A DNA stretch of 31,080 nucleotides from a virus, in IMG/VR virus record IMGVR_UViG_3300018424_000129, positions 1 to 31,080 of that record. One strand, 5' to 3'. The translations under genes were made by a program, and so were the position numbers. Positions within the stretch are counted from its first letter, which is position 1; every line of letters begins with the position of its first letter. The notes beneath the pieces are model-generated. The model was not told the origin of the DNA. It was given only the letters and a program-made list of their open reading frames with translations, and did not search any database. Shown here piece after piece: positions 8,241 through 20,282 of the stretch.

Positions 8241-8263
8241 GGGGGGTACTACCCCCCTTTTTT
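8241..8263 (+). terminator. intrinsic terminator of the fiber gene
   Basis: GGGGGGT (8241-8247), loop ACT, ACCCCCC (8251-8257), then six T. It begins 9 bases after the fiber stop codon. A perfect GC stem with an immediate T tract is a classic Rho-independent terminator. Confidence 0.92.
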
Positions 8264-8265
8264 AT

Positions 8266-8275
8266 GGTGTATAAT
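8266..8275 (+). promoter_or_regulatory. promoter-like box GGTGTATAAT before the helicase/methyltransferase gene
   Basis: TATAAT at 8270-8275 is a perfect sigma70 -10, three bases after the T tract of the terminator. No TTGACA is found at the right distance, because the -35 position falls in the terminator stem. The same ten bases appear after the terminator at 11843-11867, before the second helicase. A start near 8282 would leave a leader of about 20 bases. An early or middle promoter helped by a phage factor is inferred. Confidence 0.6.
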
Positions 8276-8301
8276 TACTGGGTAACGCGATCTTAGTACT
8301 C

Positions 8302-11300
8302 GTGATCAACATCTACGTTGACACCCTTAAAGGTTCCACCAACTCCTTCAACGTCGGGGAGACCCACTTCACTTGGGAGCACCGCCACCGTGGTCGTGAC
8401 TACGGTAAAGCGAAGCAGGTTCTTACTCAGTTGGATTCCAAGTACGTTCGTTGTGCTTGGTGGGAGAACGTGTCTACTCGTGATGACAAGGATCATCACC
8501 ATGACACCATCATCCATGAATGGTTGATGACTCTTCCTGGTGTCAAGAAGATTGGTCAGGAGACTTTTGAGTTTGATCTCAAGTTCTATACCATTGAGAT
8601 CCTTGTCCAGATGATGGAGGAGAAGTTCTTCTCTGGTAAGCAGAAGGAGTACAGTCAGTTCAAACCACGTCCTTATCAACAGCAATTCCTTGAGAAGATT
8701 GCCTCCGCATGGGACGTTAGTAATGAGTTTTTGCTGTTCGCTAAGTGCCGTGCAGGTAAGTCTGCAATGGTCCTAAAGCACATCGTAGATAGTGGTTATA
8801 AGGTATCCCTGGTTTGCTCCCGTCAGAGGTCCCCTGAGGGGTCTTGGAAGGCGGATTCTAACGAGTTCTTCCCTACTGTCAAATACATCTCTGTCCAGGA
8901 TCCTGGTTGGGAGACCTATCTTGAGTATTGGAAGGAGCGTGATGTCAATGTAGTTCTTTGGGGCACCGTCCAGAGTTTTATCAAGCGTCTGGATAAGATC
9001 AGCAACGTTGACTTCATTGCTTTTGATGAAGCACACATCGGTGGCACTGCGGACCAGTTCGTTCAACTCCGCAATGCAATTGACACTCGCATCTGCTACA
9101 TCTCTGGCACTGCACACAAACTCTGCTGGATGTTCCCCGATGAGCGCCAAAAGTTTGTCTATACCTATTTTGATGAGCAACTGGATGTTCAACGCGACGT
9201 GTTCAAGCGTCCCAAGATGAACGTTGCTTTTGCTAAGTATCAGACTTCTGCCTATCAGGAGATCTTTGGTGATGATCCTGATGCCATGAAGAACATCTTC
9301 ACTATGAAGGGTGATGAGTTCTTGCATGATTCCCTGGTGCGTGAGTTCATTCACAACTACTTTGGTCCTCAGCGTAATATCCGTATCGGTGATCGTCTGC
9401 TCAAGGGCACCTATCACATGATGGCACTGCCCAGTGTCAAAGCATGTCATGCATTCCAGAAGTTGGTTGAGTGCTATTACCCCGCATTGGTGGTTACTTC
9501 CGATGCTAAGAAGGATCAAGATGACATCAATCGCTTCCTAGATGAGCACGCAAAAGCACTGATCATCACTCAGTCTGCAAATGTTCTTGGCGTCACTGCT
9601 AAGAAGATCGATACCGTCATCAATTGCCGTGGTGGTGAGTCGATTGAGTTTTGGACTCAATTCGCATTCCGTGGTGGTTCTGGTGAACATGACTGGTGGG
9701 TGATTGATTTTGATGCCCAGCGATGCCTCCGTGCCATTCACACGGCATTCCAACTGGCATGTGACAACAATCCCACCCTGTCTCAATTCAGTGTTGTTGA
9801 CTTCACCAACATCCATGAATGGAATGATGGGTTCCAGGAACTGTCTAAAGAAGCATTTGAGGATGCTCTGGCAGCAGATGTTGAGAGCAGCATCTCAACT
9901 GTGACCAGCATTGTTGAGTCTTTGGATCTCAGTGGAGTTGGAGATTTTGTTTTTAATCTCAAGTCTTCTCTGACTACTGTGATGAAGGAGTCTCAGTTGA
10001 ATGACAATGGTGCCAACAACAAAAGTTGTGTCGTCATGGAGACTGAGCGTGTAAAAAAGTCTGATGACCTTGACACCCTGAAGAAGCAGACTGTCAAGGC
10101 ACTGCTTGAGTCCATTCCTCTGACCATGTTCTATATCATCCGTAGTGGTCAAAACGTATATTCCATTAAGGATGTGATTGGTTCTGAGATTTATCCTTCT
10201 GTCACTGGTGATAATGAGGGTATTCTCTCACAAGTAATCAATCTCAACCCCCACAGCATGGAGTTGTTGACCCGTCGTATTGGATTGGTATCTAACAGTA
10301 TCCAGAAGAGTATGAGGGAGTCTGTGTCTGAGACTATCAACGGTCTCTCGGTCTCCTCTGCTATTCAGCAATCCATTCCTACATCTCTCTTTGATATTAT
10401 GATCAATGATTGTAAGGACATGTCCCGAACCTACATGTTTGGTGACCCCAGTGGTTCTCACACTGCTCGTCTTCTTGAGCGTGGTCTTGATCCCAGCAAT
10501 CTCACCGTGTGGGAGAGTTGCGATAGTCACCGCAATCGTGTAAAATATGTGGATACTAGTGTCAAAGTGGTCGATTCCCATCCCAACATGAAGTTCACTG
10601 CCATTCTCGCCAACCCCCCATACAACGACCCCACTAAGAAGGCGCGGAACAACAAACTATGGACCAAGATTGTTGAGCAGCATCTTGAGTTGCTTGCTCC
10701 TGGTGGAGATATGTGTGAGGTGACTCCTGCATCTGTGCTTGGTAACACTGGTAAGGGTAAGAAGTTCCTCCAACTCTTCTCTACGGTTTATAATCTCAAA
10801 CTCATTGACTATACTGCAGATGATTACTTCACTGAAGGTGTTGCTATCTGCCGTTGGCACCTTGTGAATGAACCTTATCAGGGCAAGACTGTTGTCATCA
10901 CTCACGATGGTTCTTTTACTTGGGATTTGCGTGATGGTCTGCCTCTGGTTGGAGATGCTGCACTTAAGCATTCTATTCTCAATAAGATTGCCAACTCAAA
11001 GCATCCTCGTATTCCTCTGAAGATGGGTCAGGCGATTGCTACTGAGGACTATACTCCCAATGGCAAGTATGAGATCTATAAGTCTGCAGATAAAGTGGAG
11101 CGTACTGATGTTGTTCCTACCACTGGTGATGTTTTGAAGTTTATTGTTCCCTTCTCCTCCACCTACAAGAAGAGGTTTATCTCTAATGGATATGTTGGTA
11201 TGCTTAATTGCTGGTGCCCTATTACTTCGCAAGAAGAAGGGAATCGTCTTAGTGCGATCTTTGATAATCCGACTATCAAGTTTTTTGTGGACAATTATAA

Positions 11301-11433
11301 AAAGACTGCAGGATTTACTCCTGCTATTAAAAATGCGGAAGTACCTGACATCACGAACTATCAGGATCTATCTAACCAATTTGGTTTTACCAGCGACGAG
11401 GTAGAATATCTGGAGCGTTACAATGCCATCTAA
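8302..11433 (+). CDS. SF2 helicase and N6-adenine DNA methyltransferase fusion, 1043 aa
   Basis: The helicase half comes first: a Q-tip-like RPYQQQFLEKI (123-133), Walker A CRAGKS (149-154), DEAH (242-245), SGTAH (268-272), and a motif VI-like FAFRGGSGEHDWW (454-466). After a linker of about 200 residues comes a methyltransferase: motif I FGDPSGSHTARLL (713-725) and motif IV NPPY (771-774), characteristic of N6-adenine enzymes. The last 150 or so residues resemble the C-terminal DNA-recognition part of Eco57I-like enzymes. This order recalls single-chain type ISP or type III-like restriction systems. No clear nuclease is seen; an FDLK at 91-94 is only a weak PD-(D/E)XK candidate. GTG is the only supported start, since a stop lies in frame at 8272. 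G+C looks higher than in the flanking oxygenase genes (one sampled line 50% against 32%). Confidence 0.85.
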   Translation: MINIYVDTLKGSTNSFNVGETHFTWEHRHRGRDYGKAKQVLTQLDSKYVRCAWWENVSTRDDKDHHHDTIIHEWLMTLPGVKKIGQETFEFDLKFYTIEILVQMMEEKFFSGKQKEYSQFKPRPYQQQFLEKIASAWDVSNEFLLFAKCRAGKSAMVLKHIVDSGYKVSLVCSRQRSPEGSWKADSNEFFPTVKYISVQDPGWETYLEYWKERDVNVVLWGTVQSFIKRLDKISNVDFIAFDEAHIGGTADQFVQLRNAIDTRICYISGTAHKLCWMFPDERQKFVYTYFDEQLDVQRDVFKRPKMNVAFAKYQTSAYQEIFGDDPDAMKNIFTMKGDEFLHDSLVREFIHNYFGPQRNIRIGDRLLKGTYHMMALPSVKACHAFQKLVECYYPALVVTSDAKKDQDDINRFLDEHAKALIITQSANVLGVTAKKIDTVINCRGGESIEFWTQFAFRGGSGEHDWWVIDFDAQRCLRAIHTAFQLACDNNPTLSQFSVVDFTNIHEWNDGFQELSKEAFEDALAADVESSISTVTSIVESLDLSGVGDFVFNLKSSLTTVMKESQLNDNGANNKSCVVMETERVKKSDDLDTLKKQTVKALLESIPLTMFYIIRSGQNVYSIKDVIGSEIYPSVTGDNEGILSQVINLNPHSMELLTRRIGLVSNSIQKSMRESVSETINGLSVSSAIQQSIPTSLFDIMINDCKDMSRTYMFGDPSGSHTARLLERGLDPSNLTVWESCDSHRNRVKYVDTSVKVVDSHPNMKFTAILANPPYNDPTKKARNNKLWTKIVEQHLELLAPGGDMCEVTPASVLGNTGKGKKFLQLFSTVYNLKLIDYTADDYFTEGVAICRWHLVNEPYQGKTVVITHDGSFTWDLRDGLPLVGDAALKHSILNKIANSKHPRIPLKMGQAIATEDYTPNGKYEIYKSADKVERTDVVPTTGDVLKFIVPFSSTYKKRFISNGYVGMLNCWCPITSQEEGNRLSAIFDNPTIKFFVDNYKKTAGFTPAIKNAEVPDITNYQDLSNQFGFTSDEVEYLERYNAI

Positions 11434-11839
11434 GAACAATCACAACAAACTTCATGGGTCTACTCTTGATCGCTCTGATGAGAGGATCAAACAGACCCAA
11501 GAGGTTTTTACTCCTCCTGATTTGATCAACCAGATGATTCAGGAGATTCCAATTGAGAACTTGAAGAATCCAAACTCTAGGTTTATGGATAACTGTGCTG
11601 GTGATGGTAACTTCATTGTCTGTCTTTATGAAGAATTGAAGAAGTACCACAGCGAACAGCATGTGATTGACAACATGCTATATGCTGTTGAACTGATGGA
11701 AGATAATCATAAAGAGATGTGTAGGAGACTTGACATTCCTACGGATCATCCACACTATGTCTGTGCAGATGCTCTTACATACCACTATCGATTCGATGGT
11801 ACAGATGGACCAGTGACACTGGACCAATTCTTGAATTGA
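11423..11839 (+). CDS. short N6-methyltransferase-like protein lacking the catalytic motif, 138 aa
   Basis: Residues 26-34 (QEVFTPPDL) resemble the region before motif I in type I/IIG methyltransferases, and 56-64 (DNCAGDGNF) is a good SAM-binding motif I. The chain ends with CADALTYHYRF...LDQFLN just where the NPPY/F motif IV should begin, so it cannot methylate alone by the known mechanism. The end is clean, with TGA at 11837-11839 followed at once by a terminator, so this looks like a stable short gene and not random decay. It overlaps the helicase/methyltransferase gene by 11 bases. It may be a subunit, a SAM-binding regulator or a remnant. Confidence 0.75.
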   Translation: MPSKNNHNKLHGSTLDRSDERIKQTQEVFTPPDLINQMIQEIPIENLKNPNSRFMDNCAGDGNFIVCLYEELKKYHSEQHVIDNMLYAVELMEDNHKEMCRRLDIPTDHPHYVCADALTYHYRFDGTDGPVTLDQFLN

Positions 11840-11842
11840 CAC

Positions 11843-11867
11843 AAAGACCCCTGCTAGGGGTCTTTTT
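11843..11867 (+). terminator. intrinsic terminator after the short methyltransferase gene
   Basis: AAAGACCCC (11843-11851), loop TGCTA, GGGGTCTTT (11857-11865), with a T run to 11867. It starts 3 bases after the stop codon and ends the first helicase/methyltransferase transcript. Confidence 0.92.
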
Positions 11868-11877
11868 GGTGTATAAT
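11868..11877 (+). promoter_or_regulatory. promoter-like box GGTGTATAAT before the second helicase
   Basis: This is identical in ten bases to the box at 8266-8275 and is again directly behind a terminator. TATAAT is at 11872-11877. A start near 11884 would put the ATG at 11890 only about 6 bases into the RNA, so translation may be nearly leaderless. The TTGACA at 11836 is 30 bases away and does not pair with it. Confidence 0.6.
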
Positions 11878-11889
11878 ATCTCTATCGCT

Positions 11890-13128
11890 ATGACACCTAT
11901 GCAACTTCGCCCTCACCAGTCTGAGTCCCTTGATGTTATGTCTCAAGTGGACAAGGGCATCATTGTGGTTCCGACAGGTGGTGGCAAGACCCTTATTGCC
12001 ATCATGGATGCCAAGCGTCAGTTTGAGTCTGGGGACAAGACTATTGTGGTTGTTGCTCCTCGTCTCATGCTTGCTCGACAGTTGTCTGCCGAGTTTACTG
12101 AGCACATCATGGATGCCTCTGTGATGCATGTTCACTCTGGTAATGATCTTCCATACTTCACAACTACTAAACCCAACGAGATTTATTCTTGGTGTTATCA
12201 TACTGGGGGTAATAAGTTGATCGTTACCACTTATCATTCCCTGCATCGTATTCAAGAAGCAGGTATTGTTGTTGACTCTATCTATTTTGATGAAGCGCAC
12301 AATTCTGTCAAAAAGAACTTTTTTGATTCCACACGGCATTTCTCTAATACTAGCAACCGCTGCTACTTCTTCACTGCTACTCCTAAGTATTCTTCTACTT
12401 ACAAAAAGCACGGGATGAATGACACCAGCGTGTATGGTCAGATCATTTACAATGTCCCTGCTCCCCGTCTAATTAGTAACGGTTCTATCCTTCCCCCTAA
12501 GATCAATGCTATTCCCATTGGTTCCTTCCGTGAGAAGGGTGAGGAAGCAGCAGAACGTGACTGTATGACACTTCTGGATACTTTGTACAATGAAGAGCAC
12601 ATGGAGAAGGTTCTGATTGCTGCTCCTAATACAAAGGTGATGATCCGTATGCTTGCCACTACTTCTTTTATGGAGGATGTGCAATCCATGGGGTATGACC
12701 TTCTTTGGATCACCAGTAAGCACGGTGCGTTCCTTAACGACAAGAAGATTACCCGCGAACAGTTCTTCAACCTTGTACGTGAGTTTGGTGCAGATCCCGA
12801 CAAGAAGTTCATTGTTTTGCACTACTCCATTTTGAGTGAGGGTATCTCTGTTCCTGGTTTGACTTCCCTGGTGCTTATGCGTCAGATGAATGTCATTGAG
12901 ATGTGTCAATCTGTTGGGCGTGTCATTCGCCTTCATTTGGATGACATCAAGAGGATTCAGGATGGATCTCTCACCCCTGGCAATCTTCAGGACTATACCA
13001 AATCTTTTGGTTTGGTTCATGTTCCCGTCTACAGCAACGTTGGTATCTCAACAGTCAAACGTCTTCAGAATGTTGTTGACACAGTATTTGTTCAAGGTCA
13101 ACCCGCTATCTCCACTATCAAACGATGA
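11890..13128 (+). CDS. SF2 DEAH-type DNA helicase, 412 aa
   Basis: Helicase motifs are in order: QLRPHQ (5-10), Walker A PTGGGKT (28-34), DEAH (134-137), TATP (162-165) and motif VI QSVGRVIR (340-347). The length is close to UvsW-type phage helicases, although UvsW itself is usually longer, so I do not assign the symbol. It would move on or unwind DNA with ATP, perhaps in recombination, replication restart or with the nearby methyltransferase. The ATG at 11890 is chosen over the upstream TTG at 11836, because the latter lies inside the previous gene and would translate through the terminator. It overlaps the next gene by ATGA. Confidence 0.88.
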   Translation: MTPMQLRPHQSESLDVMSQVDKGIIVVPTGGGKTLIAIMDAKRQFESGDKTIVVVAPRLMLARQLSAEFTEHIMDASVMHVHSGNDLPYFTTTKPNEIYSWCYHTGGNKLIVTTYHSLHRIQEAGIVVDSIYFDEAHNSVKKNFFDSTRHFSNTSNRCYFFTATPKYSSTYKKHGMNDTSVYGQIIYNVPAPRLISNGSILPPKINAIPIGSFREKGEEAAERDCMTLLDTLYNEEHMEKVLIAAPNTKVMIRMLATTSFMEDVQSMGYDLLWITSKHGAFLNDKKITREQFFNLVREFGADPDKKFIVLHYSILSEGISVPGLTSLVLMRQMNVIEMCQSVGRVIRLHLDDIKRIQDGSLTPGNLQDYTKSFGLVHVPVYSNVGISTVKRLQNVVDTVFVQGQPAISTIKR

Positions 13129-13553
13129 CAGAAGACTACCGCTACTATCCAAAACAATATCAATTTGTTATTGGGATTACTTGGGAGCACATTGACAAAC
13201 AAATTCAATACGAAAAAGAGATTGAGACTTATAGTAAGATTAGTGATACAACAGATCTTGTAGTTAATTGTGGTGTTTATCCTGGACTGCTTCAAAACAT
13301 TCGTATGAAGTTCTCCAAGCATGGATACAATGATATGCATATCTATTCTTCCCGTCATAAGGAAGCAGTAACCATGGGTAGACACAATGACGATCAAGAT
13401 GTTTTGATTGTACAATCTCTTGGTAGGATGATGTATGTGTTTGACAATGGTGATCAGGTCACTCTAAACCCAGGTGATGGGTTGTATATACCCAAATTTG
13501 TTCATCACAATCCCGTCCACATTGAACCCAGAATTACTGTAAGTTTGTCATGA
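13125..13553 (+). CDS. JmjC/cupin-type oxygenase-like protein, 142 aa
   Basis: The C-terminal half carries a JmjC/RoxA-like core: GRHNDDQDVLIVQSLGR gives H87-x-D89 for iron and the usual Q-x-x-G-R after it; NPGDGLYIPKFVHHNPV gives the second His at H127 or H128. Such proteins hydroxylate ribosomal or other proteins with 2-oxoglutarate, but at 142 residues this one is much shorter than RoxA/YcfD and lacks their C-terminal domains. The N-terminal 60 residues are unassigned. The ATGA overlap with the helicase and the next gene implies coupled translation. Hydroxylase activity is inferred from the motif. Confidence 0.72.
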   Translation: MTEDYRYYPKQYQFVIGITWEHIDKQIQYEKEIETYSKISDTTDLVVNCGVYPGLLQNIRMKFSKHGYNDMHIYSSRHKEAVTMGRHNDDQDVLIVQSLGRMMYVFDNGDQVTLNPGDGLYIPKFVHHNPVHIEPRITVSLS

Positions 13554-14195: not shown

Positions 14196-14358
14196 ACTAA
14201 AGCATCAACGTCTCCAGGCATGGTTGCGTGAGCACAAGTGTGACGATATTGAGTATCTTGGTAATAAACAAGGTGAACATTGGTATCGTGTTGGAGAATA
14301 CGAGATAACTGCTGATCAGTTTGAAGACATTGAATTTGTTGGATATGTCGATGATTGA
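14176..14358 (+). CDS. hypothetical protein, 60 aa
   Basis: No family recognised. It starts MKISQTELKHQRLQAWLREH and ends EFVGYVDD. The ATG at 14176 is chosen over the ATG at 14170 because the GAGG at 14163-14166 is 9 bases from the former and only 3 from the latter. Its GYVDD end overlaps the MIEE start of the next oxygenase by 8 bases, a junction repeated at 18421. Confidence 0.68.
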   Translation: MKISQTELKHQRLQAWLREHKCDDIEYLGNKQGEHWYRVGEYEITADQFEDIEFVGYVDD

Positions 14359-14845
14359 AGAATTTTTTGTATCTGAAAAGATAGTTGCATATTGCAAGTC
14401 TTTACTTAAACTTGCACTAACATCCCCTGAAATCTTTAAAGATAAAGTGGATAGTAGTTTAAGTCCGAATTGCTTTGCGACTACAAATCTGCTACAATTT
14501 CCACATGCATCTATCTTTTATAACTATATTGATGCGTTGAGAATAAAATGTGAAGAATTAATTAATATCAACTTAGAGTATACTTATTTGCACCTAGTAG
14601 ATTACTCTAATGGTGGAACAATGAGTGAGCACCAGCACGATCATAATGAAGATTATAGTTTTATCCTATATCTTAATACTTGTGAGGACGGTGCTACAGT
14701 TTTAACATTAAGAGAACCTTATAAAGTGCTACCTGTTACAAATAAGGTGCTATTATTCTCCTCGTACATCTCCCATATGTCAGAGTATTCTGATACCAAG
14801 AAGGTATTGGTGGGTGGACTTAAAGTAAAGCAAAAGGAGTCCTGA
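14351..14845 (+). CDS. 2OG-Fe(II) oxygenase-like protein, 164 aa
   Basis: SEHQHDHNEDYSFILYLN (H94, H96, D97, H98) followed by FSSYISHMS (H142) and KKVLVGGL fits the iron-binding core of a 2OG oxygenase. The cluster allows several iron-ligand readings; aligned with the other oxygenases here, the pair before the hydrophobic strand reads H-x-H (H94/H96) or H96-x-H98. No clear Arg for 2-oxoglutarate is seen; K150/K151 sit at that place. The ATG at 14351 is preferred to a longer start inside the previous gene. The next gene follows directly with an AAGGAGT ribosome site. Substrate unknown. Confidence 0.68.
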   Translation: MIEEFFVSEKIVAYCKSLLKLALTSPEIFKDKVDSSLSPNCFATTNLLQFPHASIFYNYIDALRIKCEELININLEYTYLHLVDYSNGGTMSEHQHDHNEDYSFILYLNTCEDGATVLTLREPYKVLPVTNKVLLFSSYISHMSEYSDTKKVLVGGLKVKQKES

Positions 14846-15028
14846 ATGGATTGCGCCAAACAAGAAAAGCGTCGTGATGCACTGGGTTTGTTTTATGAGA
14901 GTGTTCTCAAACCAGATCATGAACTGCGCCAGTGTGCTCACAATCAAAAATGCTATCATGAATTGATGGAGTGGCGTAGCGAAATTATAGAATATTTAGA
15001 TCGTAGACGTAATGAAGAGTTTAACTGA
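14846..15028 (+). CDS. hypothetical protein, 60 aa
   Basis: No family recognised. It is highly charged and helical, with a basic end EYLDRRRNEEFN and three Cys (C3, C30 and C36). A strong ribosome site AAGGAGT (14834-14840) lies inside the end of the previous gene, and the stop overlaps the next start by 17 bases. Confidence 0.68.
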   Translation: MDCAKQEKRRDALGLFYESVLKPDHELRQCAHNQKCYHELMEWRSEIIEYLDRRRNEEFN

Positions 15029-15557
15029 ACATTTTGTTAAAGATTGGGTAGTTCCCTTTTATCAATCTAAGATCATTAATTGGGAAGGTAAAAGAGAAAA
15101 ACTCCTCCAAATTTATGAGAAGTTTAGTAAACCACTCATGGAAGAGGGAGAACAGTTTACTGATTTTAATATGGGAACAACCCGATATGATAATTTGATT
15201 CAAAATGTTTTGTTTGATGATTTAAGATTGGGAGTTAAGGAGATGGGATTCGATAAGATTCCCACCATCCAGAATTCTTGGTTCCAAGTATATAACTTGG
15301 CACACTCCCATGCGGTACATAATCACGGAATGGGTGCTTTAAGTGTGGTTTGCTACATTAAATATGATCCAAAGTATCATAGACCTACAACATTTATTGC
15401 CCCCTTCCACAGTTTGGATGATGGTAATGTAATGGAATATGAACCGAGTGGTATTGAAGAGGGATCTATAGTAATATTTCCATCTTCTATTGCACATTAT
15501 GTTCCTACTAATCAATCTACGTCTGAGAGAATGGTCCTTGCATGTAATGTAAACTAA
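15012..15557 (+). CDS. 2OG-Fe(II) oxygenase-like protein, 181 aa
   Basis: AHSHAVHNHGMGALSVVCYI gives H103-x-H105, and GSIVIFPSSIAHYV gives H162; R173 (SERMVLACN) can bind 2-oxoglutarate. The overall form resembles the phage oxygenase family in which H-x-H-P and S-G-V-x-Y follow each other. The IVIFPS-x-x-x-H strand is shared with the protein at 567. It sits one base before the first radical SAM gene, which suggests a joint step. Substrate unknown. Confidence 0.78.
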   Translation: MKSLTEHFVKDWVVPFYQSKIINWEGKREKLLQIYEKFSKPLMEEGEQFTDFNMGTTRYDNLIQNVLFDDLRLGVKEMGFDKIPTIQNSWFQVYNLAHSHAVHNHGMGALSVVCYIKYDPKYHRPTTFIAPFHSLDDGNVMEYEPSGIEEGSIVIFPSSIAHYVPTNQSTSERMVLACNVN

Positions 15558-15558
15558 T

Positions 15559-16377
15559 ATGTTAAAAGTACCACACGAAATTCAATTACACTTAACTCAC
15601 TCATGTAATCTTACATGTGAGGGTTGTACCCATTACATGAATCAAGGACACTCTGGTTCTGTTAGTATTGAAGAGGCGGATGAGTGGTTCACTGCTTGGA
15701 GTAGACGGATTGCTCCAGAGAGAGTCACTCTCATGGGTGGAGAACCGTCTCTGCATAAAGACCTGACAAAGTTTGTGTATTTGACTAGAAGGAAGTGGAG
15801 ATATTCTCAAATTGATATTGTATCTAATGGATTCTTTTTGGACAGGCATCCAGACCTTTGGAAGGCACTGATTGATACCAACACAACTCTTGGTGTGTCT
15901 GTTCACTCTGATGGGGATCCAGAGTATAGGAAGAAGTTTGAACCAATCTACGCATTGATGAAGAACTGGATTGCTAAAGGTGCTCCAGTAGAAATGAGAC
16001 CATCTATTATCCACTGGATTCGACAGTATAAGGGATTTGGTGATAAGATGGAACCATATGAAGATAATGATCCCAAAAGTAGTTGGAAGATTTGTGTATC
16101 TAAAATGTGTGTGCAACTCCATGAGGGTAAACTCTGGAAGTGTCCTGCATTGGCGTATCTTCCCATGCAAGCAGACAAATATAATCTATCGGATAAATGG
16201 AATCCATATCTAAAGTATACTCCTCTTAGTCATGATTGTAGTAAAGAAGAATTGAAAGATTTCTTCACTCGTAGAGAAGAGTCTTTTTGCAAAATGTGTC
16301 CTGCTAAAGAGGACTATTTTACCCCAGAGAATCCTTTGCTACCAGTAAGTTATTGGAAGAAGAAATATGACACTTAA
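15559..16377 (+). CDS. radical SAM protein with Cys-rich C-terminus (paralog 1), 272 aa
   Basis: The radical SAM cluster motif CNLTCEGC (C16, C20, C23) is followed by LMGGEPSLHKDL (GGEP 60-63) for SAM binding. Additional Cys groups lie toward the end: KICVSKMCVQLHEGKLWKCP and SFCKMCPAK, reminiscent of SPASM/twitch domains that hold extra Fe-S clusters. Radical SAM enzymes generate a 5'-deoxyadenosyl radical for C-H chemistry. A closely similar copy lies at 19431. The gene overlaps the following oxygenase by 11 bases. The host must supply Fe-S assembly. The reaction is unknown. Confidence 0.88.
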   Translation: MLKVPHEIQLHLTHSCNLTCEGCTHYMNQGHSGSVSIEEADEWFTAWSRRIAPERVTLMGGEPSLHKDLTKFVYLTRRKWRYSQIDIVSNGFFLDRHPDLWKALIDTNTTLGVSVHSDGDPEYRKKFEPIYALMKNWIAKGAPVEMRPSIIHWIRQYKGFGDKMEPYEDNDPKSSWKICVSKMCVQLHEGKLWKCPALAYLPMQADKYNLSDKWNPYLKYTPLSHDCSKEELKDFFTRREESFCKMCPAKEDYFTPENPLLPVSYWKKKYDT

Positions 16378-17873: not shown

Positions 17874-18428
17874 ATGTTTTTTCGTAAGTTGAATAAACAA
17901 TTTGTTGTTGATCATTACAGCAAAAAAGGTAAAAAGATTGAGTATGGATTGGATACTCCCATTGGATTCATGGGTATCAAGTATTCTTATGTACATACCA
18001 CAAAAGATGAAGATCTCTTACAAGTAATTCCAGAAGATCATAGGGATAAATGCACCCTATCTCTGATGGAACTTAACTATCAAATTCCTCCACATACTGA
18101 TAGTGATATAGAAGCAATTGTCAACTTCTATATTAAAACAGATCGGTGCGTCACTCAGTTTTACTATCCACCAGCGGCGGATGTAGATACTCAAAAGATT
18201 GCTAATCAAACAGACGGTGCAATCTTCCATGAGGGGCATCTTAAAAAGGCAGTTAGATTTATGGCACAACCTGGAGATGCTTATCTCTTGGATGTATCTA
18301 AACCACATTCTGTTATTCCGACAGAACCTGGACTGACAGATCGTAAATGTATCTGTTTGCAGATTCTTTATAAGTCTTTTGATGAAGCAGTTGAGATGTT
18401 GAAAAAAACGGGGTATATCGATGATTGA
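17874..18428 (+). CDS. 2OG-Fe(II) oxygenase, 184 aa
   Basis: QIPPHTDSDIEAIVNFYIKT gives H74-x-D76 and GDAYLLDVSKPHSVIP gives H145; R157 (DRKCICLQI) is the likely 2-oxoglutarate ligand. This is a complete standard facial triad, unlike the H-x-H group nearby. AGGAG at 17863-17867, starting within the previous stop, is a good ribosome site for ATG 17874. Its GYIDD end overlaps the MIEI start of the next gene, as in the 14176/14351 pair. Target unknown. Confidence 0.8.
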   Translation: MFFRKLNKQFVVDHYSKKGKKIEYGLDTPIGFMGIKYSYVHTTKDEDLLQVIPEDHRDKCTLSLMELNYQIPPHTDSDIEAIVNFYIKTDRCVTQFYYPPAADVDTQKIANQTDGAIFHEGHLKKAVRFMAQPGDAYLLDVSKPHSVIPTEPGLTDRKCICLQILYKSFDEAVEMLKKTGYIDD

Positions 18429-18945
18429 GATTATTGACAATTACCTTCCTCAACGTGAATATGACACTATCCGTGCATATTTTGAGGGAGATATGGATGG
18501 TGGAGCAACTCATAATTCATGTACTTGGATGTATTATCCTGGTATTACTTTGGATAATGATGGGCATTTCCAATTTGTTCAGTTAATATTTTCGCAGTAT
18601 ACAATTCTAAGCGATTCATTTAATTTATTGTCTCCTATTATTCAGAAGGAGAGGATGTGTTCTATTGCTAGAATTAAAGCAAATTGTGTTATTAAAACAC
18701 CTGAGATAATTGAGTTTACCCAAGGATTCCACACGGATTTTAATAGTGATTTGATGACAGGCATTTACTACATCAATAGTAATGATGGATATACTTTGTT
18801 TGAAGATGGGACAAAGTGTGAGAGCGTTGCTAATAGATTTTGTAGATTTCCTGTTAGAACAAAACATACTGGAACAACGTGTACCAATACTAATCGTAGA
18901 TTGGTTCTTAACTTTAACTATTCTATCTATGATACAGATAATTGA
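18421..18945 (+). CDS. 2OG-Fe(II) oxygenase-like protein (tandem copy A), 174 aa
   Basis: QGFHTDFNSDLMTGIYYINS gives H104-x-D106, and RTKHTGTTC gives H149, followed by R159/R160 in RRLVLNF. The order HxD, 'TLFEDGTKC', distal His, Arg is that of prolyl-4-hydroxylase-like phage oxygenases. It is a clear paralog of the next gene, sharing IIDNYL, SIARIKANC and NDGYTLFEDGTKC. Overlaps: 8 bases with the previous gene and 17 with the next. Confidence 0.78.
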   Translation: MIEIIDNYLPQREYDTIRAYFEGDMDGGATHNSCTWMYYPGITLDNDGHFQFVQLIFSQYTILSDSFNLLSPIIQKERMCSIARIKANCVIKTPEIIEFTQGFHTDFNSDLMTGIYYINSNDGYTLFEDGTKCESVANRFCRFPVRTKHTGTTCTNTNRRLVLNFNYSIYDTDN

Positions 18946-19447
18946 TAACTACCTGGATCCAGATGATTTTAATAGAATCCGTCTTTATTTTGAAGGTAAA
19001 TTAGATGATGGAACAATAGAAAATTCTTGCAATTGGCATTTTGTTCCAGGGTGTGCTCAGATTGGGGATGGGCACTATCATTTTTCATCATACATTCATT
19101 CAATGTTTGAAGTTCGCATTCCAAGAGCGTTTGAATTACTAAAACCATTGATTGAGAGGACAAATATGTCTTCTATTGCTAGAATCAAAGCGAATTGTAT
19201 GATAAGAACTGAAAAATTAAAGGTAATGATGGATGGATTCCATGATGACTATCCTCACACATTAACAACAGGAATCTATTATATTAATACTAATGATGGA
19301 TACACTTTGTTTGAGGATGGAACAAAGTGTGATAGTGTTGCTAATAGATTTTGTATATTCCCGTGTGGGATAAAACATACTGGCACAACATGTACAACAA
19401 CAGACCGTAGACTGTTGATTAATTTTAATTATGCAAGTTACGACTAA
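18929..19447 (+). CDS. 2OG-Fe(II) oxygenase-like protein (tandem copy B), 172 aa
   Basis: DGFHDDYPHTLTTGIYYINT gives H105-x-D107, KHTGTTC gives H150, and RRLLINF gives R160/R161. ATG 18929 (MIQIIDNYLDPDD) is chosen over longer in-frame starts because it aligns with the start of copy A. Long DNA identities with copy A, around 19290-19350, indicate a duplication. It overlaps both neighbours by 17 bases. The middle has diverged most, so the two may act on different substrates. Confidence 0.78.
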   Translation: MIQIIDNYLDPDDFNRIRLYFEGKLDDGTIENSCNWHFVPGCAQIGDGHYHFSSYIHSMFEVRIPRAFELLKPLIERTNMSSIARIKANCMIRTEKLKVMMDGFHDDYPHTLTTGIYYINTNDGYTLFEDGTKCDSVANRFCIFPCGIKHTGTTCTTTDRRLLINFNYASYD

Positions 19448-20282
19448 ACAGATAGAGTTGCACGTTACCCACGCATGTAATTTTACATGTGAGGGTTGTT
19501 CGCATTATTCTAATCATGGACATTCTGGTAACTTATCTTTAGAAACTGCTAGAGAGTGGCTATATACATGGGGTCAACGTATTGTCCCTGAAACATTTGT
19601 TATACTTGGTGGAGAACCTACTTTAAATAAAGATCTAACCGATATAGTTTATTTGGTTAGAATGATATATCCTGATCCGTCTGTACAAATTGATTTAGTA
19701 TCTAACGCTAGTTTTTTACACAATCATCCGAGACTACCAAAAGCATTAATAGCAACCCAGACAAATTTAGCAATATCTATTCACAGCACCAAACACAAGG
19801 ATTATGTAAGACGATTTAAAAAAGGTTATCAACTTGCCAAATCATGGAGACATGAACTTGGGGTGCATGTGGAATTCTGGGACTTTACTAACACTCACTG
19901 GACACCTCAATACAAGGGATTTGGTAGTGGGATGATGCCTTATAAGGATGGTAATCCTCGTCAGAGTTGGGAGAAGTGTGTGTCAAAACATGCTTTACAA
20001 ATACACGAAGGGAAGTTATGGAAGTGTCCATCACTTGCATATCTTCCAATGCAAGCAAACAAATACAATTTAAGTCAGGATTGGGATTATTATCTAAAAT
20101 ATGAACCATTGACCTCAGATTGTAGTGATCAAGAACTTGAAGAGTTCCTGAATAGACAGGATGAGTCCTTTTGCTCTATGTGTCCAGCAAATAAAGTAGA
20201 ACCATATATCAAACAAGACCCAACTTTACCCGTTAGTTATTGGGAGAAGCACTATGATAACCTGGGGGATTTCAGCGAATAG
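19431..20282 (+). CDS. radical SAM protein with Cys-rich C-terminus (paralog 2), 283 aa
   Basis: CNFTCEGC (C16, C20, C23), LGGEPTLNKDL, and the late Cys groups KCVSKHALQIHEGKLWKCP and SFCSMCPANK repeat the plan of the protein at 15559. The second group differs in one Cys (SKHAL against SKMCV), so the number of cluster ligands may differ. The 'HEGKLWKCPALAYLPMQA' region is nearly shared. It overlaps the carbamoyltransferase gene by 29 bases. Probably a separate substrate or step from paralog 1. Confidence 0.87.
   Translation: MQVTTKQIELHVTHACNFTCEGCSHYSNHGHSGNLSLETAREWLYTWGQRIVPETFVILGGEPTLNKDLTDIVYLVRMIYPDPSVQIDLVSNASFLHNHPRLPKALIATQTNLAISIHSTKHKDYVRRFKKGYQLAKSWRHELGVHVEFWDFTNTHWTPQYKGFGSGMMPYKDGNPRQSWEKCVSKHALQIHEGKLWKCPSLAYLPMQANKYNLSQDWDYYLKYEPLTSDCSDQELEEFLNRQDESFCSMCPANKVEPYIKQDPTLPVSYWEKHYDNLGDFSE

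Follow-up and report, generated by a model that had tools for sequence, protein, structure and literature searches.

The two adjacent genes ORF1 and ORF2 of this cyanophage DNA probably encode a phage-borne, ATP-dependent restriction/modification-like enzyme, which would work like the type ISP enzymes but is built differently, and of which a pair of products would be made by ribosomal frameshifting. We put the probability of this reading at roughly 0.7. Its two main elements, a frameshift cassette within ORF1 and a methyltransferase split between ORF1 and ORF2, were both missed by the initial annotation of the locus.

Locus and gene order

The window (the whole stretch of DNA that was analysed, 31,080 nucleotides) is a 31-kb fragment from the record of a marine T4-like cyanophage, and its closest named relatives are Synechococcus phages. 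The following features make up the locus:

8241..8257, + strand: intrinsic terminator of the upstream tail-fibre gene, GGGGGG-TACTA-CCCCCC-T6, strong; 5' border of the ORF1+ORF2 unit
8302..11433, + strand: ORF1, 1043 aa, GTG start; GIY-YIG-like domain, SF2 motor, coupler-like part, NPPY half and C-terminal region
11423..11839, + strand: ORF2, 138 aa; SAM-binding half, phrog_4376
11836-13128: ORF3, helicase; TTG start listed, alternative ATG at 11890
13125-13553: ORF4, JmjC_2/cupin (Pfam)

ORF1 overlaps ORF2, ORF2 the TTG start of ORF3, and ORF4 the ORF that follows (ATGA at 13550). The ATG of ORF3 at 11890 (MTPMQLRPHQ) fits the relatives better than the listed TTG. Pfam gave Eco57I above the cut-off and a weak ResIII match for ORF1, N6_Mtase slightly under the cut-off for ORF2, and a DEAD/ResIII helicase for ORF3. 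All four ORFs described by the initial annotation, a helicase-methyltransferase fusion, a methyltransferase-like fragment, a second helicase and a JmjC/cupin-like protein, are present, and the Pfam and PHROG matches agree with the descriptions.

These ORFs had been regarded as a self-contained four-gene block, a view that we had to abandon since ORF3 is a core cyanophage helicase and ORF4 is absent from two relatives (L002 and L006). ORF1 was found in 14 IMG/VR contigs at 60-97% identity, and the order tail fibre, ORF1, ORF2, ORF3 is preserved across them where the sequence permits. In S-CAM7, MA01 and ACG-2014f the linkage is limited to the homologues of ORF1 and ORF2. ORF3 matches phrog_16 ('DNA helicase', E 1.1e-62). 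Its relatives are spread over 447 phage records, with about one locus in each, and in the two phage records inspected no ORF1 or ORF2 was seen near the ORF3 relative. Judging from the phrog_16 label and the T4-like core cluster, ORF3 is a UvsW-type core helicase. A relative of ORF4 in S-CAM9 adjoins ribonucleotide reductase genes. With ORF3 being a core helicase and ORF4 a variable neighbour, the functional unit is ORF1+ORF2; a four-gene complex including the ubiquitous ORF3 and the variable ORF4 was considered and rejected.

The supposed borders and base composition of the block fared variously. The terminator on the 5' side is strong, but on the 3' side there are only weak terminator-like matches, and ORF4 runs into the following ORF. 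The twin promoter boxes do not stand out from chance, with 10 promoter-like matches found against 13.3 expected. G+C is indeed higher in ORF1 (0.457) and ORF3 (0.446) than in the downstream genes (0.367), but this does not hold for the locus in general, the orthologous ORF1s of L006, L014 and L001 being low in G+C (0.352-0.378). High G+C as a mark of recent transfer of the block was rejected because the orthologues differ in this way.

Some other features of the region were observed. In L008 (6374-7924), and also in L007 and L009, an additional ORF of 516 aa separates the tail fibre from ORF1. The window has a tRNA-Leu (TAA) at 122-206, and 2OG-Fe(II) oxygenase genes flank the unit on both sides (567-1106, 14321-14845 and 15012-15557); the top PHROG of the one at 14321-14845 is labelled 'DNA endonuclease V', yet the protein looks oxygenase-like. 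The genes at 15559-16377 and 19431-20282 are paralogues, about 53% identical, with a radical-SAM-like cysteine motif (CNLTCEGC and CNFTCEGC). Those at 18421-18945 and 18782-19447 are overlapping neighbour paralogues whose copy number varies, with extras in L003, L007, L008 and L014.

A methyltransferase split between two genes

In the split METHYLTRANSFERASE, the C-terminal part of ORF1 has the catalytic NPPY (771-774) but DPSGSH at the position of SAM-binding motif I, and this position stays DPxG-like in the relatives. Motif X (EVFTP), motif I in perfect form (D-N-C-A-G-D-G-N-F) and motifs II-III are all present in ORF2, which breaks off at the point where motif IV would be expected. The two adjacent, overlapping genes consequently carry complementary sets of motifs, X and I-III on ORF2 and NPPY onward on ORF1. 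Profile comparisons to CamA, an adenine methyltransferase of solved structure, gave the same picture, with a match over residues 29-83 for ORF2 (E 5.7e-4) and a non-overlapping one over residues 157-288 for the C-terminal half of ORF1 (E 2.4e-7). The earlier term 'methyltransferase-like fragment' is apt for ORF2 as a description, but ORF2 cannot be regarded as debris, being conserved as a SAM-binding half whose motif set is invariant.

ORF2 has 325 relatives in IMG/VR, of which 80 were kept for a count of gene neighbourhoods and 73 had enough upstream sequence. ORF2 lies directly behind an NPPY half in 65 of these 73 loci, mostly with an overlap of 1-10 nt; seven others have the NPPY half within the locus, and one has none. 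About 17 of the 65 adjacent catalytic proteins begin 23 aa or less from NPPY, and these short halves therefore have no SAM site at all. Across the whole ORF2 alignment the identity to the ORF2 of the window is about 60% or more, and the partners are highly diverse, being bare catalytic halves, proteins with a GIY-YIG-like N-terminus, or motor-bearing proteins. From this we infer that ORF2 is a shared SAM-binding subunit for exchangeable catalytic and target subunits. In bacterial genomes the ORF2 family was found in 2 MAG contigs only.

Modelled alone, ORF2 gave a poor structure (pLDDT 65), and a fold search with this poor model returned no match. A poor fold on its own is what would be expected of half a domain, and can be taken as weak evidence for the split. 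Taken over motifs, profiles and gene neighbourhoods, it is very probable that the C-terminal part of ORF1 and ORF2 form one methyltransferase.

Further members of these families were seen in named phages. S-CAM7 (L016) has a second ORF2-family gene at 19076-19477, 7 kb from the first and near an 'adenine-specific methyltransferase' gene. In ACG-2014f (L018, 2884-6909), gp191 is a phrog_3689-like methyltransferase half that starts at NPPY, and its neighbours are an 892-aa protein annotated 'cytitidyltransferase' and a 151-aa hypothetical protein.

Domain architecture of ORF1

ORF1 combines an SF2 helicase-like translocase and an N6 methyltransferase half in one chain, and can be divided as follows:

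8302..8646, + strand: residues 1-115, GIY-YIG-like domain with conserved residues, putative nuclease
8647..9801, + strand: residues ~116-500, SF2 helicase/translocase with AKCRAGKS, DEAH and QFAFRGGS
10069..10416, + strand: residues ~590-705, helical coupler-like region; the R/M gene border of S-CAM7-type phages falls at its end
10417..11430, + strand: residues 706-1043, methyltransferase half with degenerate motif I DPSGSH (715-720), catalytic NPPY (771-774) and a presumed target-recognition part

Among PDB structures, the best match to the ORF1 model (mean pLDDT 72) was LlaBIII, a type ISP enzyme, with an alignment of 1028 columns, E 1.8e-16 and a moderate TM-score of 0.42; SauUSI, RadD and CamA were matched over parts. 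This supports the earlier description of ORF1 as a restriction-like helicase-methyltransferase. PADLOC found no system match for ORF1.

The initial annotation saw no obvious nuclease in the block and suggested a structural check of the 1043-aa protein, especially residues 1-120. It was partly right, in that no Mrr-family PD-(D/E)XK nuclease was matched in ORF1 by Pfam or PADLOC. The model is LlaBIII-like overall, and its N-terminus, with no confident match to a nuclease family, has a GIY-YIG-like strand order and motif set: residues 1-115 are modelled as beta-beta-alpha-alpha-beta-alpha. Y5, G19, T21, R28, D33, K36, D68, H72 and E87 are conserved, the motifs being NIY, FxxGxT and R28, with D68 apparently at the position of the usual catalytic Glu. 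Direct profile comparisons to GIY-YIG (Pfam, PDB profiles and hhalign) were weak or negative; one family member gave a weak Pfam GIY-YIG match (E 0.048), and L069, a relative of the same overall layout, has T5orf172 above the Pfam cut-off. Together, the motif pattern, the topology of the model and the T5orf172 match of L069 suggest that the domain is GIY-YIG-like.

The modules of ORF1 have also been exchanged. In L014, L052, L053 and L054 the N-terminal part (1-705) is divergent and the methyltransferase part similar, with the swap at the border between coupler and methyltransferase. In L014 the methyltransferase part is 90-96% identical to that of the window, and its ORF2 is nearly identical too.

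A less probable reading, though one to be taken seriously, is that the enzyme is for modification only, in protection or counter-defence, with an N-terminal domain that is no nuclease and a motor that couples methylation to replication. It would account for the missing nuclease family match and for the many relatives that hold just the two-gene methyltransferase and no motor. It sits badly with the Y, G-T, R, D and E of the N-terminal domain, which are kept in relatives down to 30-40% identity, with a fold matching that of an ATP-dependent restriction enzyme, and with the exchange of the nuclease-like and motor modules as a unit in L014. We find it likely, from the sequences, that the role of ORF1+ORF2 is to modify the phage DNA and to restrict DNA of the host or of competitors that is unmethylated. 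Restriction activity taken by itself has about an even chance.

A frameshift cassette in ORF1

Between the motor and the coupler-like region, ORF1 contains the following elements:

10038..10041, + strand: SD-like GGAG, 11 nt 5' of the heptamer; GAG invariant in 17 aligned sites
10053..10059, + strand: slippery heptamer A_AAA_AAG, in phase, codons 584-586; the sole in-phase copy in ORF1 of the window
10062..10067, + strand: tandem stops TGA TGA in the -1 frame, one codon past the heptamer
10068..10099, + strand: stem-loop with arms 10068-10075 (CCTTGACA) and 10092-10099 (TGTCAAGG), 8 nt past the heptamer, covarying

A -1 slip in the window would reach a stop one codon later, giving a predicted product of 587 aa.

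The heptamer is in phase at all 18 distinct site sequences, and the junction invariably reads GTA or GCA followed by AAA AAG. Given Val-Lys-Lys, the codons GTA AAA AAG would be expected in about 5% of cases from pooled codon usage and, with the codon usage of the window alone, in about 2%. A hairpin is found across the sites, with a stem of 6-8 bp starting 7-11 nt 3' of the heptamer, and its structure is conserved; in L055 and L066 the arms are CCCTAAC/GTTAGGG. In the stem alignment 96.7% of the cells are paired, with double changes in 4 pairs. In 500 shuffles neither the paired-cell nor the covariation score was ever reached, and in slid controls the paired fraction was 15-42%. The folding z-scores of six sites were between -1.8 and -4.8, and an Rfam search of the hairpin region gave no match. 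Synonymous conservation is raised at codons 575-600 compared to the neighbourhood, and there are other peaks elsewhere in ORF1. These patterns make it highly probable that the site is functional in the relatives, and also very likely that it is so in the window.

Two polarities among the relatives

In 7 of the first 14 contigs, ORF1 was found to lie in two frames. The first frame ends near codon 594, and the remaining 457 aa are encoded in the -1 frame, which is open and about 82-85% identical to the window. The 18 distinct site sequences are divided equally, nine with one frame (the window, L001-L004, L006, L024, L066 and L120) and nine with two. At the one-frame sites a -1 slip allows exactly one further codon to be read before a stop, which is immediately followed by another. 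At the two-frame sites it is the 0 frame that closes, after 6 more codons (0 in L063), and a slip yields the fusion. The same pair of products is thus predicted from either arrangement. The polarity has changed at least 3 times on supported branches, both in the tree of the N-terminal part and in that of the C-terminal part, and L066, of one arrangement, is sister to L055/L057, of the other. The slippery site is absent from L014, L052, L053 and L054, which have the divergent N-terminal part, and also from L015-L017, L074, L080 and L103. In the S-CAM7-type relatives the two parts of ORF1 are separate genes, and a frameshift is not needed.

These separate R and M genes, which are also found in ACG-2014f relatives, raise the question of whether the -1-frame part is a separate gene, whose translation begins by re-initiation or at a start of its own, with A_AAA_AAG and the hairpin incidental. 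An ATG is in fact present at codon 22 after the slip in several -1 contigs. We nevertheless consider this improbable. In L055/L057, when the -1 frame is read from 4 codons ahead of the heptamer, the first start codon met is a TTG at codon 26 past it, and the first ATG is at codon 84. The peptide encoded ahead of this TTG is homologous all the same, so that this frame must be entered from upstream. Moreover, both polarities retain the heptamer, its phase and the hairpin, the unused frame is closed by a stop at a near-constant distance, and the stem covaries.

Ribosomal slippage at the heptamer is preferred. That the slip instead takes place during transcription on the A6 run is very unlikely; the run is short, the X_XXY_YYZ phase is kept, and the covarying hairpin and the SD-like element suit slippage by ribosomes. 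Assembly error or gene decay, which would at least fit with every -1 member being a metagenomic contig, has the smallest chance of all, given that the frame change is common to several independent metagenomes and two deep clades, that the -1 frame is open and conserved over 457 aa, and that the A run is always exactly 6, with the change located behind it. In close -1 pairs, most differences fall on the third positions of codons read in the -1 frame (1, 1 and 7-8 at the three positions).

Proposed mechanism and significance

Some of the ribosomes probably slip at codons 584-586, giving two proteins from each mRNA. The long chain (1043 aa) would consist of the GIY-YIG-like, motor, coupler and methyltransferase parts, and the short one (587 aa) of the GIY-YIG-like and motor parts, without coupler and methyltransferase. 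In the sister phages the same two proteins would arise, but there the long chain by slipping and the short one by standard decoding. The adenine-N6 methyltransferase would have its catalytic and target half on the C-terminus of ORF1 and its SAM half on ORF2, and would be active only when the two associate. The long form and ORF2 would then recognise and methylate their sites, by which the phage DNA is protected, and the long form, or surplus short motor/nuclease-like subunits, may translocate on and cut unmethylated host or competitor DNA. The frameshift would in this way provide additional motor/nuclease-like chains without methyltransferase, and a similar outcome is reached in the S-CAM7-type relatives through separate genes. 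A wider interpretation, to which we give an even chance, is that the conserved SAM subunit (phrog_4376) serves as a platform for many exchangeable catalytic and target halves, some of them fused to a nuclease-like motor, and that in this lineage the proportion of motor-only chains to motor-plus-methyltransferase chains is set by a dnaX-type frameshift which switches polarity. If so, the stoichiometry of a restriction machine would here be tuned genetically.

The best-known cases of programmed frameshifting in bacteria and phages are those of transposases, tail chaperones and dnaX. For dnaX it has been described in the literature (PMC5009743). Our searches found nothing directly relevant on frameshifting in cyanophages or restriction-modification systems, or on split phage methyltransferases, and no report of a frameshift setting the subunit ratio in a restriction-modification-like enzyme or of repeated polarity reversal among close relatives. 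As far as searched, the frameshifted gene and the split methyltransferase, both conserved in relatives, appear to be undescribed. The repeated reversal of polarity can be regarded as a natural experiment on the need for both products. Through the split adenine methyltransferase, a large family annotated as unknown, namely the IMG/VR relatives counted above, would gain a function, and the methylation specificities of marine phages are predicted to be mix-and-match; S-CAM7 and MA01 are examples of isolates.

Comparison with known systems

The slippery sequence of E. coli dnaX (tau/gamma) is A_AAA_AAG, a single nucleotide can reverse the roles of the frameshift, and dnaX shows both polarities in different bacteria (PMC5009743, PMC7282821). 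The site in ORF1 resembles that of E. coli dnaX in its heptamer, SD-like element and hairpin and, in the arrangement of the window, in the stop one codon after the slip. It differs in that the gene is unrelated, that both polarities are shown by close phages, and in its spacings (SD 11 nt, hairpin 7-11 nt).

The type ISP enzymes LlaBIII and LlaGI are single chains (PMC4666363). ORF1 shares with them the order of nuclease-like domain, SF2 motor, coupler, methyltransferase and recognition part in one chain. In contrast to them, ORF1 has no Mrr-family nuclease that we could find, the SAM-binding subunit is separate, and a truncated second product is predicted. As two features that define type ISP, the Mrr nuclease and a complete methyltransferase in the chain, are lacking in ORF1 (motif I is degenerate), we liken it to the type ISP enzymes and do not class it as one.

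The NPPY and SAM halves each match CamA and together give the right order, as in the Eco57I/TaqI-like N6-adenine enzymes and CamA itself, but those are one chain and here there are two genes with the catalytic half first. M.AquI and M.EcoHK31I are naturally split 5mC methyltransferases (PMC3404938), and likewise have a single methyltransferase domain across two polypeptides. Their small subunit carries motifs IX-X or IX, whereas the enzyme described here would be an N6 methyltransferase, is split between motifs III and IV, and is widespread in phages. Of the phage homologues, gp055, gp056 and gp057 of S-CAM7 correspond to the N-terminal part of ORF1, its C-terminal part and ORF2, in three genes and with no frameshift, gp057 being annotated as hypothetical, and the 'type II R-M restriction subunit' of MA01 is a fused ORF1 homologue without the heptamer.
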